This document shows positions 32,002 to 39,500 of a stretch of DNA of 64,000 bases, in pieces. The position numbers were made by a program, and so were the translations under genes. Source of the stretch: Planctomycetaceae bacterium. Lineage in GTDB: Bacteria; Planctomycetota; Phycisphaerae; SM23-33. The notes under the pieces are model-generated. The model saw only the letters and a list, made by a program, of their open reading frames with translations, was not told where the DNA came from and searched no databases. Position 1 is the stretch's first letter. Every line of letters begins with the position of its first letter. The stretch covers positions 248,001 to 312,000 of the forward strand of contig JBDKTA010000022.1 of the NCBI GenBank assembly GCA_039680605.1. The letters are read 5' to 3'.

Positions 32002-32073
32002 CATGATCGCGGCCCGGCGCGTCGCTCCGGATGCGACCCAGTGAAGATGCACCCTTGGTGCAAAGAGGGACCA

Positions 32074-33555
32074 TTGAACACTCGCCCCAACGTTCTGTGG
32101 CTGATGAGCGACCAGCACAACACGCAGTCGACCGGTTACAGCGGCAACCCCAACGTGCGCACGCCCAACCTCGACCGCCTGGCGGCCCAGAGCGTCAACT
32201 TCCGCCGCGCGTACACCGTCAACCCGATCTGCGCCCCGTCGCGGTTGAGCTTCATCACCGGCCAGTACTGCCACACCCACGGGCTCTTCGGCAACATGAA
32301 CAACTTGTACAGCCGCTCAAACCCTGACACGCTGGCGTGCGTGTTCCGCCGGGCCGGCTATCAGACCGCCATCTTCGGCAAAGCCCACATGGTGCCCCTG
32401 TGGGACCGCCAAGGCTTCGAGCACATCCGCTACGACAATCTCGGCGACGTCGCCCCCGGCGACCCGATGTCCTGCGAGTACTTCCGCCAGATTTGTGAAT
32501 CCGGCGCCGCCGAACTGATGGACCGTGAAATGACTACGCATGGCGAGCCGGCATCGCGGCCGTCATTTCTGTCCTACGAGCAGTCGTGCGAATACTTCAC
32601 CGGTCAAGAGGCGATCAACTTCCTGGCCGCCCGCGACCGATCACGCCCGTTCTTTGCGCAAGTCAGCTTCCAGCGCCCCCACGGGTGCGACTACGCGGCC
32701 GAAGAATACTTCCACATGTACGATCCGAAGGACATCGTCTTGCCCGATAGCGCGGCTGACCTGTTCGTCAACGGTTTTGCCTCCAAGCCCAAGGCGATAC
32801 GCGAGGCGGTGCTGGCAGGCAGCGGCTATCCGCTGGCCGCCAGCGAGCAGCGCCTCAAGCGGGGCCTGTGCGGCTACTACGCCCTGATCTCGCAGATCGA
32901 CAACGAGATCGGTCGCGTCATCGCCGCCCTGGAAGCCTCGGGGGAACTCGACAACACGATCATCCTCTACACCGCCGACCACGGCGACTACGCCGGGGAG
33001 CACGGGCTGCTGTTCAAGGGACTGAGCCTCTACGAGTCGCTCCACCGCGTGCCGTTCCTGCTGCGCTGGCCGGGCGGACCGGCCGGGACGGTCTGCGACG
33101 AGCTGATCGAGACCATCGACTGGTACCCGACGGTATGCGGCCTGTGCGGAGTGGACGTGCCGCCCGGCCGCGAGGGCGTGGACGTGCTGCCCATCGCCGC
33201 CGGGCAACGATCGGGCAAAGACGCCGCCTTCTGCGAGTTCTGCGTCACGGGCAAGGTCTCGGCCATTCGCACGCGCCAGTACCGCCTGATCGTCAACGCC
33301 GACTGCGGCGCCCACGAGCTGTACGACGTGCAGGCCGACCCGGGCGAGATGTACAACCTCTTCGAAGATCCGCGCCACGCTGCCGCCCGGGCGGACCTGA
33401 TGGAGCAACTGCTGCTGTTCACCCTCAACTACCGCACCGAAAGCAGCTACGCCACCGACGCCGTGCAGGGGCCCGAACTGTACGAGTCGCCCGCCATAAA
33501 AATGCACTTCGGCCGCGCCCGCTGGGCCGATTACGGCAAAACCGCTCCCGCCTGA
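32074..33555 (+). CDS. Sulfatase (formylglycine-dependent)
   Basis: 493 residues if the TTG at 32074 is used, which is preceded by AAAGAGGGA and gives the usual start NTRPNVLWLMSDQH; a GTG at 32041 and ATG at 32047 are upstream options. The catalytic motif is canonical, C53-A-P-S-R57, with SFITG after it, so maturation by a formylglycine-generating enzyme is expected. Metal residues lie in LMSDQH and YTADHGDYAGEHG. It probably removes sulfate from a polysaccharide. No clear signal peptide is present, which is unusual for planctomycete sulfatases. It contrasts with the Thr-type paralogue at 11957-13354. Confidence 0.9.
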   Translation: MNTRPNVLWLMSDQHNTQSTGYSGNPNVRTPNLDRLAAQSVNFRRAYTVNPICAPSRLSFITGQYCHTHGLFGNMNNLYSRSNPDTLACVFRRAGYQTAIFGKAHMVPLWDRQGFEHIRYDNLGDVAPGDPMSCEYFRQICESGAAELMDREMTTHGEPASRPSFLSYEQSCEYFTGQEAINFLAARDRSRPFFAQVSFQRPHGCDYAAEEYFHMYDPKDIVLPDSAADLFVNGFASKPKAIREAVLAGSGYPLAASEQRLKRGLCGYYALISQIDNEIGRVIAALEASGELDNTIILYTADHGDYAGEHGLLFKGLSLYESLHRVPFLLRWPGGPAGTVCDELIETIDWYPTVCGLCGVDVPPGREGVDVLPIAAGQRSGKDAAFCEFCVTGKVSAIRTRQYRLIVNADCGAHELYDVQADPGEMYNLFEDPRHAAARADLMEQLLLFTLNYRTESSYATDAVQGPELYESPAIKMHFGRARWADYGKTAPA

Positions 33556-33581
33556 GAGCGCAGTTAGCTCAGTTACCGGGG

Positions 33582-33741
33582 GGAGGAAAAGTCGCGGCGG
33601 AGGCACTAAATGAAGAAGTAACTCGTTGTGTGAATTACTTCTTCATTTTGGGGCCGCGTACCCCTGCCCAAGGCAAGTATTCATCAAAGCCACACAACGG
33701 CTTTGATAAATACTTGGTGCCTCCGCCGCGACTTTTCCTCC
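33582..33741. other. Structured element: 25-bp closing stem, two long hairpins with complementary loops
   Basis: Arms 33582-33606 and 33717-33741 are perfectly complementary over 25 bp (outer end GGAGGAAAAGTCGCGG). Inside, hairpin 1 has a perfect 14-bp stem (33608-33621 with 33635-33648) and hairpin 2 an 18-bp stem with one mismatch (33674-33691 with 33699-33716). The loop of hairpin 2, ACACAAC (33692-33698), is the exact complement of GTTGTGT (33625-33631) in loop 1, a 7-bp kissing interaction. A small GGGG/CCCC hairpin lies between. It fills the gap between two convergent genes and could be a structured RNA, a bidirectional terminator or a MITE. Confidence 0.75.
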
Positions 33742-33758
33742 ATGCCCGAGGAATTCTG

Positions 33759-35675
33759 TCACGAGTACCCGTGCAGGCCCGACAAATACCGCCCCACGAT
33801 AAACCAGTTGAAGAGCATCACCGCGCAGCCGACGATGCAGATCCACGCCGTAACGCCCCCGCGAATGCGCGCCGGCGTGATGTACCGCACGTGCAGCGCC
33901 AGAACGTACACCAGCGCCGTCAGCAAGGCCCAGGTCTCCTTGGCGTCCCAGCCCCACCAGCGACCCCACGCCACGTCCCCCCACATCGCCCCCAGCACGA
34001 TCCCCGCGATGATCGTCCAGCACGCCAGTTGCGCCGTCAGCACATTGCAGCCGTCGATCGCCGCAGGCGTTGACGCCCCCGACAGCTGCGAAAGGTCCGC
34101 TCCCGCGCTGAGCGGTTCACCCTTGCCCCGGCGCGCCACCACCAGCGCCACCAGGTACGCCACCGAGATCACCAGCGTCATCCCCGCCAGCGCGTGACCG
34201 ATGATGATCAGCGACACGTGCGCCGCCATCAGCTTCGACGACAGCAGCCCCTGCAGCGCGTGAAGCTCGCCGCCCATGCGGCTGGCCGCCAGCAGCGCCG
34301 CGGCCGCATAGAGCGAAGCCGCCATGCCGATGTAGTTGCGCTTCCAGATCCATTCCACCGCCAGGGCGAAAACCGCCCCCAGCAGCGCCGAGGCCACCAG
34401 CGCCTCCCACTGCGTCATCATCGGCGGCAGGTACCACGCGCGGCCGGAGATCATCCAACGCAGCATGAAACCGGCCGCCAGGAGCGATGTCGAAAGCGCC
34501 AGCACGGTCATGGCCGCGCGGCGGGCCCATCGCCGTCGCGAGGGCGCGGCGATGATGAACAGCACTGTCGCCAAGGCAAAGCCCGCCCAGACAAGCGTGG
34601 CTTTGTACGTGCGGTTGTACGCCACTTCGAGCTGACGCAGCGCCTTGGGCGGATGACTCTCGCTCTTGGCGGGCAGGTCAACCGCCAATTCGTGAATGAT
34701 CGTGTTGACCCCGCCGGCGTTGCGGCCGCGCCAGGCGTCGCGCAGCGACAGGAGGGGCTGGTTGCCCATCATGCCGGGCCCGGCGCCCAAGAGCGTATCC
34801 GCGTCGGGCCATTCGCGTGTGGAAGCCGGGATGACGCGCAGTACGCCGGCGGCGATGAACGCCTCGGCCCGGGCGGTGAGGCGGCTGATCTGCACGCGCG
34901 TGGCGGGCTGGTCCAGCACCAGTTCGCTCAACGCCCGCACCAGCGGCGACGGCGCATCGCGTGGGGGCAGCGCGGAGACCTGTTCCGGCGTCGCCCGGCC
35001 GGACTGAACCAGCAGAGCGCCCACGTCCTGGTTGAGCATCGCGCGCGGCGCCAGGCGATGGGTCGCGCGGAACGCATCGAGGTCCGCGCCTTGAAGGTGC
35101 CTCGCGACGAAATCTCGCATGCCCGTCTCGCCCACGTACAGCAGCGGCGCGTCCAGGTACGCCCCGGCGTTGAGGTAAATCTCCAGGTACGCGGCCGCCG
35201 GCGGCAGAGCGTTGATATCGGCCGAGCCGCTGATCTGCGCCAACTGCTCGCGCGCCACCGTATCCAGCGGCGCGATGCGCCCCTGATACTGCACGCCCAG
35301 AAGCTGCAACTCGCTGGCGTCGATCTGCCTGAGGAACTCACGAGTGGGCGCATCGAAGATGGGCTGGCCAAAGACGGACGGCGCCGTGAGGGTGTGAATC
35401 GCAAGCACTGCAACCAGCGGCCATACCCCGCGAGTCTTCGTCCCGAAGGGACGACAGGATCTAGCCGGGGGCGTCAGCCCCCGGTAATCGCCATTAGAGG
35501 ATCCCGCCCCGAAGGGGCGGAAGGTTGTTGCGGCCGCCGAGAAGCCTGTCGCCCCTTCGGGGCTCTGGTTCATTAATGGCTTGTTCCGGGGGCTCACGCC
35601 CCCGGCTATATCCTTACCGCCCCTTCGGGGCGAAGAGTCCTTACCCCATACGGGCTTGCTCGATGGGTTGCTCAT
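33759..35675 (-). CDS. ccsA: Cytochrome c assembly protein, CcsA/CcmF-like, with repeat-derived N-terminus
   Basis: 638 residues from the ATG at 35675, which overlaps the ResB stop as ATGA. The last 300 residues are the cytochrome c assembly domain with about eight membrane helices and the haem-handling WWD motif, GRWWGWDAKETWALLTALVY. The middle (about 100-320) is an extracytoplasmic domain. The signal-like helix WPLVAVLAIHTLTAPSVFG begins only near residue 85; the first 80 residues are encoded by palindromic repeats. It exports or attaches haem to c-type cytochromes together with ResB. No Met lies between the repeats and the signal helix, so the repeat region is probably translated. Confidence 0.88.
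   Translation of the reverse strand: MSNPSSKPVWGKDSSPRRGGKDIAGGVSPRNKPLMNQSPEGATGFSAAATTFRPFGAGSSNGDYRGLTPPARSCRPFGTKTRGVWPLVAVLAIHTLTAPSVFGQPIFDAPTREFLRQIDASELQLLGVQYQGRIAPLDTVAREQLAQISGSADINALPPAAAYLEIYLNAGAYLDAPLLYVGETGMRDFVARHLQGADLDAFRATHRLAPRAMLNQDVGALLVQSGRATPEQVSALPPRDAPSPLVRALSELVLDQPATRVQISRLTARAEAFIAAGVLRVIPASTREWPDADTLLGAGPGMMGNQPLLSLRDAWRGRNAGGVNTIIHELAVDLPAKSESHPPKALRQLEVAYNRTYKATLVWAGFALATVLFIIAAPSRRRWARRAAMTVLALSTSLLAAGFMLRWMISGRAWYLPPMMTQWEALVASALLGAVFALAVEWIWKRNYIGMAASLYAAAALLAASRMGGELHALQGLLSSKLMAAHVSLIIIGHALAGMTLVISVAYLVALVVARRGKGEPLSAGADLSQLSGASTPAAIDGCNVLTAQLACWTIIAGIVLGAMWGDVAWGRWWGWDAKETWALLTALVYVLALHVRYITPARIRGGVTAWICIVGCAVMLFNWFIVGRYLSGLHGYS
35437..35640. repeat. CCCCTTCGGGG / GGGGGCGTCAGCCCCC palindromic repeats inside ccsA
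   Basis: At least five palindromes, including GCCCCGAAGGGGC (twice in opposite orders), GGGGGCGTCAGCCCCC and GGGGGCTCACGCCCCC, occupy the 5' coding part of the ccsA gene. The reading frame stays open through all of them. Confidence 0.85.
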
Positions 35676-37123
35676 GCGCCCTCCTTTCCGGCTCGGCGCA
35701 TCAGCAGCGGTTTGGCGTAGAACCCGTACAGCAGCCCGGCGCAGATCATCGCGCAGGCGGTCCAGATCAGCCACAGGGCTGGGCGGCTGGCCACGAGGAG
35801 GCGGATCGTCGCCACGCGGCCGTCGGGGCCGCTCTGCCAACTGCCCTGGCTGAGCTGATACGCCCCGACCTGCACCGGCTCGTTGAGGCGCAGCGTTTCC
35901 TGGCGGCGCAGTCCGCCGGCCGCAATCGTCACCTCGCAAATGTAATCCTGCGGCACGCTGGTGCCCGGGTGCGTGAGGTACTGCGTGGCGGTCACCTGCA
36001 CCGTCGCGGGCAGGTCGACGCGCCGGCGCGAGAAGTTCAGCCAGATCGTCTTGCCGCCGCCCAGGTCCATCCGCAGAGGCGCGCTGGCGTTTTCAAAGCT
36101 CGCAAACGGAAGAAAACTCGTCCGCTCGAATCCGCTGCCGCGGATCGTCACGCGCACCGCCGGAACCGCCGCGGCGGACGCGCCCGCGACGGCCTGGGCA
36201 TCCCACGTCAGGCTCGCGTGATCGAGCCTCTCCAGCAGCGTCACGCCGACCGTCCGGCCCGCCAGGGGCACGGCAAGCTCGCGTCCGCGATCCAGGTCGC
36301 CTTTCCATCGCGACCCGTCGGGGCGCACCACCACCAGCACCGGCGAGACCTGCGGGCCAGACAGCACCATCGCCACGTCGTAGGGCATGCCCGGGCCGCG
36401 GTCGCCCGCGGCGGGTTTGGCCAACTGCTCCACCTGCCGAGGATCGGAGTCGGGGTAATAGATCATCGCGTACCCGCGGCCGCCGAACTGCTGATATTCC
36501 GGCTCGTCGGGGCAAAGCGTGACTCGCTGGCTGTGGCCCAAATCGTCAATTTGCAGGATCACCGCCGGCGACGCCGCGGGGGAGTCGTTCTGCCATCGCG
36601 GGGCAAGCTCCGCCCGCGGCAGAAACAAATCGGCGCTGCCGCTGAAGCCTTCCGGCAGACCGGCCAGCGATGCGTTGAGGCGGCCGGGAACCCCCAGCGG
36701 CGTCTGCACCGGCGCCTGGCGCGGGTCGGTCGAGACGAAGATCGCGTAGGTGTCGTTGACGAAGAAGTGATCGATCGCCGACCAGCGCCCCTGGTCGGCC
36801 ATGGTCAGGCACTCGCCGCTGACGTGGAAGGCGGCGTACCAAGCGGCCGCGCCCATCAGCACGATCACGCCGGCGTGACTGCACCACGCGCCCAGGCGCG
36901 CCGGGCGAAATGGAACTCGCAGCGCCGTCGCCAGGATGATGTTGACCGCCAGCGCCGCCGAAAGCGTCAGCAGGGCCCAGTGACCGTAGAGGTCGTTCAG
37001 GCGAGGATCGCGCGCCGCTGCGATGGAAACGGCTGAAAGATAAATAATGACCGCCGCCAGCAGCGCGCAGCCCAAGGCGGTGCTCGCCAGCAGGCGGATG
37101 ACAGGATTTCTCGGCAGGTTCAC
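35672..37123 (-). CDS. resB: ResB-like cytochrome c biogenesis protein
   Basis: 483 residues if the GTG at 37123 is the start; the upstream in-frame stretch runs into the preceding gene in the wrong frame. Membrane helices lie at about 7-35, 45-65 and 78-100 and at the C-terminus (about 450-475), around a large extracytoplasmic domain, as in ResB/Ccs1. These proteins bind haem and reduce apocytochrome, working with CcsA, which follows with a 4-bp overlap. No Shine-Dalgarno is seen; a TATAAT stands 10 bases before the GTG, so the mRNA may be leaderless. Confidence 0.85.
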   Translation of the reverse strand: MNLPRNPVIRLLASTALGCALLAAVIIYLSAVSIAAARDPRLNDLYGHWALLTLSAALAVNIILATALRVPFRPARLGAWCSHAGVIVLMGAAAWYAAFHVSGECLTMADQGRWSAIDHFFVNDTYAIFVSTDPRQAPVQTPLGVPGRLNASLAGLPEGFSGSADLFLPRAELAPRWQNDSPAASPAVILQIDDLGHSQRVTLCPDEPEYQQFGGRGYAMIYYPDSDPRQVEQLAKPAAGDRGPGMPYDVAMVLSGPQVSPVLVVVRPDGSRWKGDLDRGRELAVPLAGRTVGVTLLERLDHASLTWDAQAVAGASAAAVPAVRVTIRGSGFERTSFLPFASFENASAPLRMDLGGGKTIWLNFSRRRVDLPATVQVTATQYLTHPGTSVPQDYICEVTIAAGGLRRQETLRLNEPVQVGAYQLSQGSWQSGPDGRVATIRLLVASRPALWLIWTACAMICAGLLYGFYAKPLLMRRAGKEGA

Positions 37124-37160: not shown

Positions 37161-39500
37161 TCCCGGATCGACCGCCGCGCGGCGGACCAACGTCGCGCGT
37201 CCAAACCGCCGGCCAGGAAAAATGGGGACTGTCCCGCTGTTTGGGACTGTCCCCATTTTTCCGTCAGGCGCGCAGGGGCTTCCGGCCGGCAGCACCAGTT
37301 CGATCTGCACCTCATACGGCTCGGCGTTACGATTGGTCAGCGTCGCCGACAACTCCCCGCCGTCGTTGCGGTAGGTCACGTCGAAGCAGCTTTCGCCCAG
37401 TCGGCAGTTCTGCCATGAAAACTCCGGCCACGGGCAGAACGGGCGGAAGTTCACGCGGCGGGCGGGGCGGTCGGCCCGCAGGCCCAGGATGTTGTGGATG
37501 AACAGGCAGGCCAAGACGCCGCCCGCCCAGGCGCATTTCATCGCCGCCGCGGCGCGCTGGGGCGCGTTGGGGTCGGTCGCGCCGGCCAGGTATGGCCACC
37601 ACCAGATCGAGCCGTCCAGGTCCGTCAGACGGCGGATGCGCAGAAGCTGGCGGGCCAGTTCCGCCTCGTCTGCCGCCGAGGCCAGCGCCGTCATCCACGC
37701 CGGGAAGGTCGCGCCGTAATGCTTATCGTCAGTCCACCACACGCCGTCCATCTCCGGCCAGTAGAGCGGGTTTTCGGCCGTCAGCGCCAAGCTCGCGTGG
37801 GTCAGCAGCGCCGGTTCGTCTGTCTCGCAGAAACCGTAGAAGGGCGCCAGCGTGGTGTCGGTCTCTTCGCCGTCGTGGCCGGCCACGAATGTGCCCTCGG
37901 CGTTGGCGCCTTCAAAGAACCGCCGCCCGTGTGGGCTTTCGCCTGCGCAGCGTTCAAGGATGGCCGCTTTAAGCTGCTCAGCGTTTGCGGCCCATGCGGC
38001 CGCCAGATCGGGCACGTTGTACACTTCGTCCGCCAGGCGCGACATTTCGGCGAAGGCTTTCCAGATCACGACGTTGCTGCCGGTGTGCCAGTCGCCGCGG
38101 GCGTCGCCGTCGGAGATGTATAGTGCGGGAAAGAGCATCTCCTCTCCGCGGCGGCTGGCGTGAATCTGCTCGAACATTTTCATCGCCCCGGCCAGCAGGT
38201 CGGCCTGGCCGGCGAAGAAGCTCGTGTCGCCGGTGTTGCGGTAATACTCGCCAGCCAGCAGGTACGCCGCCAGGGCGTTGCAGGGTGAGTGTGTCGCCGG
38301 CGAGGCGTCAGCCCATCGCGCCAGGCCGCGCCCGAACGCCTGAGGCGGCGGGCCCCACTGGTTGAACCACGCTGCCGCCCCGGCGCAGAGCTGCGGGTGC
38401 AGCATGCCCATCGGCAGCATCGCGTGGTAGATGTCCTTGATCCAGATGAACTTGTTCTCCCACGAGGCCGGCCCGCAGAAGCGGCTGCCCCAGAAGCTCC
38501 CCCCGAATCGCCCGTCGGGCAGGTGCAGCTCCGACTGGCGGCAAAGCTCCGATGCCCGCACCAGGCTCTCAGCCCAGTACGGCTCGCTCGGGATCGCAAG
38601 CGTCCCCAGCCGCCGCGCGTGATACGCCAGCGTGTCGTTAAGCCAATCCACCGCCGCCCGCCCCGCCACGCGCGATTGAATCGCCCGCGTCTCATCCGCA
38701 TCGGCCCCGATCGCGCAGACAAAGGCCAAGCACTGCACCGCCCCGCCAGCCAGTGAAAACGCCGCTTGCGCCGTCGTAGCACAGGCATCTTCCGTAGCAC
38801 GGGCATCTTGCCCGTGAGTAGCATGGGCGTCCCGCCCATGCTCCCGTTGTGTGGCATGGGCGTCCCGCCCATGCTCTTGCCGTGTGGCATGGGCGTCTCG
38901 CCCATGCTCTTGCTGTTGTCTTTCCACGGGCAAGATGCCCGTGGAACTCACGGGCGAGACGCCCGTGCTACTGAGCCGGCCCGTCAAGGTCTCACTGCCC
39001 TCGTTGCGGATCTCCACCGCCAGCACGATCGCCCGCGGCGAAAGCTCCGGCCGCTCGACGTCCACCGGCGCAAAAGCCAACACGCGAATCCGCAGGCCGC
39101 CAACGCGGTACGTGAACATCGGCAGCAGATTCGCAACGAGGTCCGCCTGCACACCAGGCAGTTCATGAAGCGCTGCCGCCGGCGCGCCGTCAATCTCGAT
39201 TTCCAGCGGCCACGGCCCCCCCGCCGTGATCTCCTTGGTGACATACGCCCCGCGAAAGGCCCCGCCCAGCTCCCCCGCCGCCAGCGACTGCACTACGCAC
39301 GCGTGCCGCGCCAGCCCGCCAGCCGTAAACGAGCAGAGAATCTGATTGTTCGACACGTCGAAGGTGAGGTTCTCGATCTCGCGCGACGCGCTATATAAGG
39401 TATGCGGATCGCGAGCCCCCGCCGGCCCCACGCCGAAGAACGCGCTGCAGGGGGAATCCATGGCGGCCGAGAGAGTCGCAAAGGATTGCTGTGTTGCCAT
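37134..39500 (-). CDS. Six-hairpin glycosidase-like protein with in-frame repeat insertions
   Basis: 788 residues from the ATG at 39500. An N-terminal beta-sandwich (about 20-190) precedes an (alpha/alpha) toroid glycosidase-type domain (about 270-690), with conserved-looking WIKDIYHAMLPMG, DGDARGDWHTGSN and TDDKHYGATFPAWM, then a C-terminal beta-domain. The fold is typical for enzymes cutting or phosphorolysing glycans, but I cannot name the GH family. Between the first two domains about 60 residues are translated from palindromic repeats (GRDAHAT, GQDARAT), and near the C-terminus KMGTVPNSGTVPIF comes from another repeat. No signal peptide is seen. Confidence 0.8.
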   Translation of the reverse strand: MATQQSFATLSAAMDSPCSAFFGVGPAGARDPHTLYSASREIENLTFDVSNNQILCSFTAGGLARHACVVQSLAAGELGGAFRGAYVTKEITAGGPWPLEIEIDGAPAAALHELPGVQADLVANLLPMFTYRVGGLRIRVLAFAPVDVERPELSPRAIVLAVEIRNEGSETLTGRLSSTGVSPVSSTGILPVERQQQEHGRDAHATRQEHGRDAHATQREHGRDAHATHGQDARATEDACATTAQAAFSLAGGAVQCLAFVCAIGADADETRAIQSRVAGRAAVDWLNDTLAYHARRLGTLAIPSEPYWAESLVRASELCRQSELHLPDGRFGGSFWGSRFCGPASWENKFIWIKDIYHAMLPMGMLHPQLCAGAAAWFNQWGPPPQAFGRGLARWADASPATHSPCNALAAYLLAGEYYRNTGDTSFFAGQADLLAGAMKMFEQIHASRRGEEMLFPALYISDGDARGDWHTGSNVVIWKAFAEMSRLADEVYNVPDLAAAWAANAEQLKAAILERCAGESPHGRRFFEGANAEGTFVAGHDGEETDTTLAPFYGFCETDEPALLTHASLALTAENPLYWPEMDGVWWTDDKHYGATFPAWMTALASAADEAELARQLLRIRRLTDLDGSIWWWPYLAGATDPNAPQRAAAAMKCAWAGGVLACLFIHNILGLRADRPARRVNFRPFCPWPEFSWQNCRLGESCFDVTYRNDGGELSATLTNRNAEPYEVQIELVLPAGSPCAPDGKMGTVPNSGTVPIFPGRRFGRATLVRRAAVDPGKTLELRRV
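37216..37262. repeat. AAAAATGGGGAC palindromic repeat within the glycosidase gene
   Basis: Nested palindrome: GGAAAAATGGGGAC (37216-37229) pairs with GTCCCCATTTTTCC (37249-37262), and GTCCC/GGGAC pair inside. It is translated in frame near the C-terminus of the glycosidase. Confidence 0.85.
38776..38972. repeat. Run of GGGCG-CGCCC and GGGCAAGATGCCC palindromes within the glycosidase gene
   Basis: About eight consecutive short palindromes (CATGGGCGTCCCGCCCATG and ACGGGCAAGATGCCCGT types) in both orientations. The frame remains open, yielding a linker between two domains. Confidence 0.88.

Follow-up and report, generated by a model that had tools for sequence, protein, structure and literature searches.

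A nested palindrome with complementary hairpin loops in a planctomycete genome, probably a copy of an IS66-type MITE

The window analysed here is a 64,000-nucleotide stretch from the genome of a Planctomycetaceae bacterium, and between two of its convergent genes, encoding a sulfatase and a CcsA-like protein, lies a perfect 25-bp inverted repeat (33582-33606 pairing with 33717-33741) that closes around two hairpins. The loops of these hairpins, GTTGTGT (loop A, 33625-33631) and ACACAAC (loop B, 33692-33698), are exact complements over 7 bases, and the match can be extended to 9 bases by taking in the neighbouring positions (CGTTGTGTG at 33624-33632 against CACACAACG at 33691-33699). The sequence-only reading described both the stem and the loop match, which we confirm, and saw in them either a selected tertiary fold held by a kissing contact, as in structured RNAs, or the folded single-stranded DNA substrate of a mobile element. 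Which of these, if either, accounts for the locus? The predicted fold itself is very stable: the minimum free energy of 33560-33765 is -111.3 kcal/mol, whereas dinucleotide shuffles give -59.2 +/- 4.8 (z = -10.9) and none of the 200 folded equally well. Comparison with sibling copies showed that the repeat unit reaches past the closing stem (33582-33741) into outer terminal inverted repeats (TIRs), giving the following features.

33563..33757, no strand assigned: putative full MITE copy, outer TIR to outer TIR, from alignment of the flanks of sibling copies, its degenerate ends being placed by that alignment
33563..33579, + strand: left outer terminal inverted repeat, GTTAGCTCAGTTACCGG (family GTATCCCCTCAGTTACGGGG)
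33740..33757, - strand: right outer terminal inverted repeat, degenerate (family GTAATGCCTCAGTCACGGGG)
33582..33606, no strand assigned: closing stem, left arm of the perfect 25-bp inverted repeat, pairing maintained in siblings
33717..33741, no strand assigned: closing stem, right arm of the perfect 25-bp inverted repeat, pairing maintained in siblings
33608..33648, no strand assigned: hairpin A, loop 33625-33631, stem sequence conserved across three genera
33649..33673, no strand assigned: variable linker, mean identity between copies 58%
33674..33716, no strand assigned: hairpin B, loop 33692-33698, conserved in two genera, not observed in the third
32041..33555, + strand: flanking sulfatase gene (PF00884, E 2.4e-49), which stops just short of the element
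33759..35939, - strand: flanking cytochrome c assembly (CcsA-like) gene (PF01578, E 1.9e-21), whose end adjoins the element

The element gave no Rfam match over the gathering score. Elsewhere in the window, two oppositely oriented matches to the Acido-Lenti-1 RNA (RF01687; 35439-35484, - strand; 35586-35632, + strand) lie close to where the CcsA-like gene begins and resemble GC-rich palindromic repeats, and clusters of GGCGAGACGCC-type palindromic words occur at 38826-38963 and 60322-60428; the window holds 17 such words where 5.4 are expected, more than any shuffle.

The locus is one member of a repeat family. Searching the window's own genome (G000) returned 40 dispersed places with full or partial copies, about 33 of them near full length, and the copies of this short element are intergenic and without coding capacity. 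A covariance model built from 30 of the own-genome copies and one relative found further members, among 397 genomes of the class, only in two Planctomycetota MAGs, G005 and G023, which belong to other genera within the same family, with at least seven matches in each. A phylum-wide sample of 392 genomes gave matches in the own genome only; these large samples were searched with stricter filters, under which weak relatives may be lost. No match to the element was found in plasmid and phage collections, and none to the hairpin-A pattern in viral contigs; matches to that pattern in Clostridia and other phyla lack the closing stem and look like chance. In G005, two copies stand in opposite orientation at one locus (L072, 1501-1651 and 1764-1914) with about 110 bases between them. 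In the own genome, the same outer repeats, GCCTCAGTTA...TAACTGAGGC, also surround a quite different core (L050, 500-642, C25:94099-94241), which is multi-hairpin with GC-rich palindromes.

The ends of the copies indicate how the family was dispersed. The element is about 195 bp long and has terminal inverted repeats of the form GTA(A)...(T)TAC; in the flanks of the own-genome copies this outer repeat reads GTATCCCCTCAGTTACGGGG at one end and GTAATGCCTCAGTCACGGGG at the other. In several own-genome copies, 8-bp direct repeats (GCGTCTGC, GTCAGGGG, CGTTTGGC, GCCACGGG and CGGCGCGC) stand exactly at the TIR ends, and the argument is this position, since a longest-shared-word test taken by itself is only modestly above chance. 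In G023, where the repeat ends are GTAAGAGTTCAGCCCTATGCA and GTAACTATTCACCCAATTGCA, at least six of the eight flanking bases are shared by 15 of 27 end pairs, as opposed to 1.9% of mismatched pairs, and seven of the 27 have identical flanking 8-mers; some of these pairs are misanchored, and the true duplication rate is probably higher. The copy in the window has degenerate ends and retains no 8-bp target duplication. The mobile element that the sequence-only reading had offered as its second option is thus borne out by the repeat family, the 8-bp duplications and the TIRs.

Both the ends and the duplication size match the IS66/ISBst12 group. A member of this group, ISDge4 of Deinococcus, ends in GTGACTACTCAGCA / GTAACTGCTCAGCA with an 8-bp direct repeat (PMC12898284), and the own-genome ends, GTAATGCCTCAGTCA, are close to these, the agreement with IS66-type ends being about 9 of 12 positions. 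IS66-family elements in related genomes have GTAACTGTTCAGCCATCTGC ends (GTAACTGTTCAGCC / GTAACTCTTCAGCC), similar to those of G023, and one of them, at L141, has an exact 8-bp target duplication (GTTTTACT). The features in common with IS66/ISBst12 elements such as ISDge4 are GTAA-type imperfect TIRs containing a CTCAG/TTCAG core and the 8-bp target duplication, whereas the MITE has no transposase gene and its nested-palindrome core was not observed in the IS66 elements examined. These matches lead us to read the element as an IS66-type MITE whose transposase is supplied in trans. A profile search for the IS66 transposase (PF03050) gave no match in G000 or G023. This limits the IS66 reading, though a MITE family need not strictly have an autonomous partner in its own genome, and we infer that the element is, or perhaps once was, mobilised in trans; PF03050 matches are present in 22 of 60 relatives, G005 among them. 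A search for an autonomous copy sharing the inner stem turned up only short-range pairs, and the G023 TIR pairs lying 1.1-2.5 kb apart enclose ordinary-looking genes and no recognisable transposase ORF. The single IS1595 gene in G000 was considered as a source and rejected, as its ends do not match.

Pairing within the core is maintained across copies and genera, in support of this part of the sequence-only reading. Two-sided changes are found in 18 of 58 pairs, compared with 4.2 +/- 1.3 in shuffles and 2-4 when the partners are slid. Identity among own-genome copies is 93-95% in the stems, 73-74% in the loops and, on average, 58% in the linker. Against the G023 copy L049, identity falls to 47% in the closing stem, which is nonetheless fully paired, and is 82-88% in the stems of hairpin A. 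In the G023 copies, TGCAGAAG/CTTCTGCA is replaced by GCTTCAAG/CTTGAAGC in both arms together; in G005 the closing stem and hairpin A are retained, and no hairpin B was seen. Counts of G-U against A-C pairs favour no strand consistently, with G-U slightly in excess on one strand in the closing stem and in hairpin A, and on the opposite strand in hairpin B. The block swaps, the inconsistent strand counts and the low identity of a closing stem that remains paired all suit a process acting on DNA. Template switching between inverted-repeat arms, as described in PMC8604942, homogenises the arms and inverts the spacer (see also PMC8794818), and the outer ends of two own-genome copies (L025, L038), which are swapped relative to the core, fit such a spacer inversion.

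We therefore consider it probable, and hold with good confidence, that the family consists of palindromic IS66/ISBst12-type MITEs, mobilised in trans, whose stems are kept mainly by template switching. An IS66-family transposase encoded elsewhere would move the element of about 195 bp and duplicate 8 bp of target as it does so; the element's non-coding core would be one large palindrome, a closing stem with two inner hairpins. The perfect pairing is most likely due to template switching between the arms during replication, which would repeatedly correct the stems and so yield both perfect stems and paired changes, possibly with added selection for a stable core. Loop complementarity would then be a trait of a recently amplified subfamily, with no tertiary contact needed.

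The conservation of hairpin A across genera exceeds what template switching needs, and selection may act on this hairpin. One could suppose that the core is a selected structured RNA or DNA, in which a host or transposase factor recognises the sequence of hairpin A and the loops of the youngest subfamily kiss, aiding amplification; we think this unlikely. As for the loops, pairing at all seven positions (G-U counted, fixed register) is kept in just 11 of the 30 own-genome copies, which all belong to the crown of the tree, and the deep copies L037, L038, L039 and L041 have 4-6 loop pairs, not significantly above composition. By duplex energy, the two loops pair strongly (-8.9 kcal/mol or better) in 19 of 32 own-genome copies and weakly in 13, and those of G023 pair no better than shuffled ones. 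In several copies only one of the two loops has changed. The covariance check proposed for the loops in the sequence-only reading gave a divided answer: within G000, two loop pairs have two-sided changes and the covariation score is above that of all shuffles when kinship is ignored, these changes falling largely within related copies, and in G023 the signal is absent. We regard the kissing contact as unproven and do not count it a conserved feature of the MITE family.

A bidirectional intrinsic terminator that has spread, with a GC-rich stem between AAAA and TTTT serving both strands, appears quite unlikely. Three genera whose stems differ in sequence share the A4/T4 tract beside the closing stem, and the window copy does sit between convergent genes; however, heuristic gene calls place 18 own-genome copies between divergent and 15 between tandem genes, with just 5 between convergent ones, a distribution that argues against a spread terminator. 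A terminator scan also found none at the element.

A selected structured RNA, regulatory or other, with a loop-loop kissing contact and only incidentally repeated, is very doubtful. It would explain the stable fold, the covariation in the stems and the G000 loop score; against it stand the loops, which are less conserved between copies than the stems and whose match falls to near composition level in the deep copies and G023, the inconsistent strand counts, the varying gene context, and four G023 copies (L115, L116, L117, L126) in which a palindrome close to CCTGCCTGCCGGCAGGCAGG is inserted inside loop A. As the loop match is limited to part of the family, it makes a poor argument for a special folded RNA.

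An origin as a REP/BIME or IS200/IS605-type element, with a RAYT-like Y1 transposase mobilising the single strand, is extremely improbable: the hairpins are palindromic and in inverted arrangement and G000 has 15 Y1 matches (PF01797; for example L163 and L165), but 8-bp target duplications and long TIRs are present, which HUH transposition is not known to produce, the two of these 15 Y1 loci that were read have no core or TIR motifs, and the element is absent from the four loci fetched for the association check. Apart from this question, G000 carries its Y1 matches alongside many extragenic palindromes. The folded single-stranded substrate of the sequence-only reading is likewise not supported: with 8-bp duplications and ends like those of IS66, the likely enzyme is a DDE transposase that works on double-stranded DNA.

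Returning to the IS66-type MITE, two known systems bear comparison. QMITE2 of Coxiella (PMC10969869) is of similar size, is likewise intergenic, and has TIRs, direct repeats near 8 bp and a very stable predicted fold; its sequence differs, and the MITE here has two conserved inner hairpins within a second, closing inverted repeat. REP/BIME sequences (PMC3733652, PMC2817692) are likewise extragenic palindromes in inverted arrangement, whereas the MITE has a closing stem and target duplications, and no link to a Y1 transposase was found. Our verdict is a new family of IS66-type MITEs whose palindromic core is unusually elaborate, the element probably being a small parasitic repeat that jumps between genes with a borrowed transposase. 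It is a mobile palindrome of three genera in which the sequence of the closing stem has been nearly all replaced and the pairing kept, and it offers a natural case of how template switching may create covariation that imitates RNA selection. Nested pairing and loop complementarity within one sequence call for caution, as they can be the signature of a transposon.
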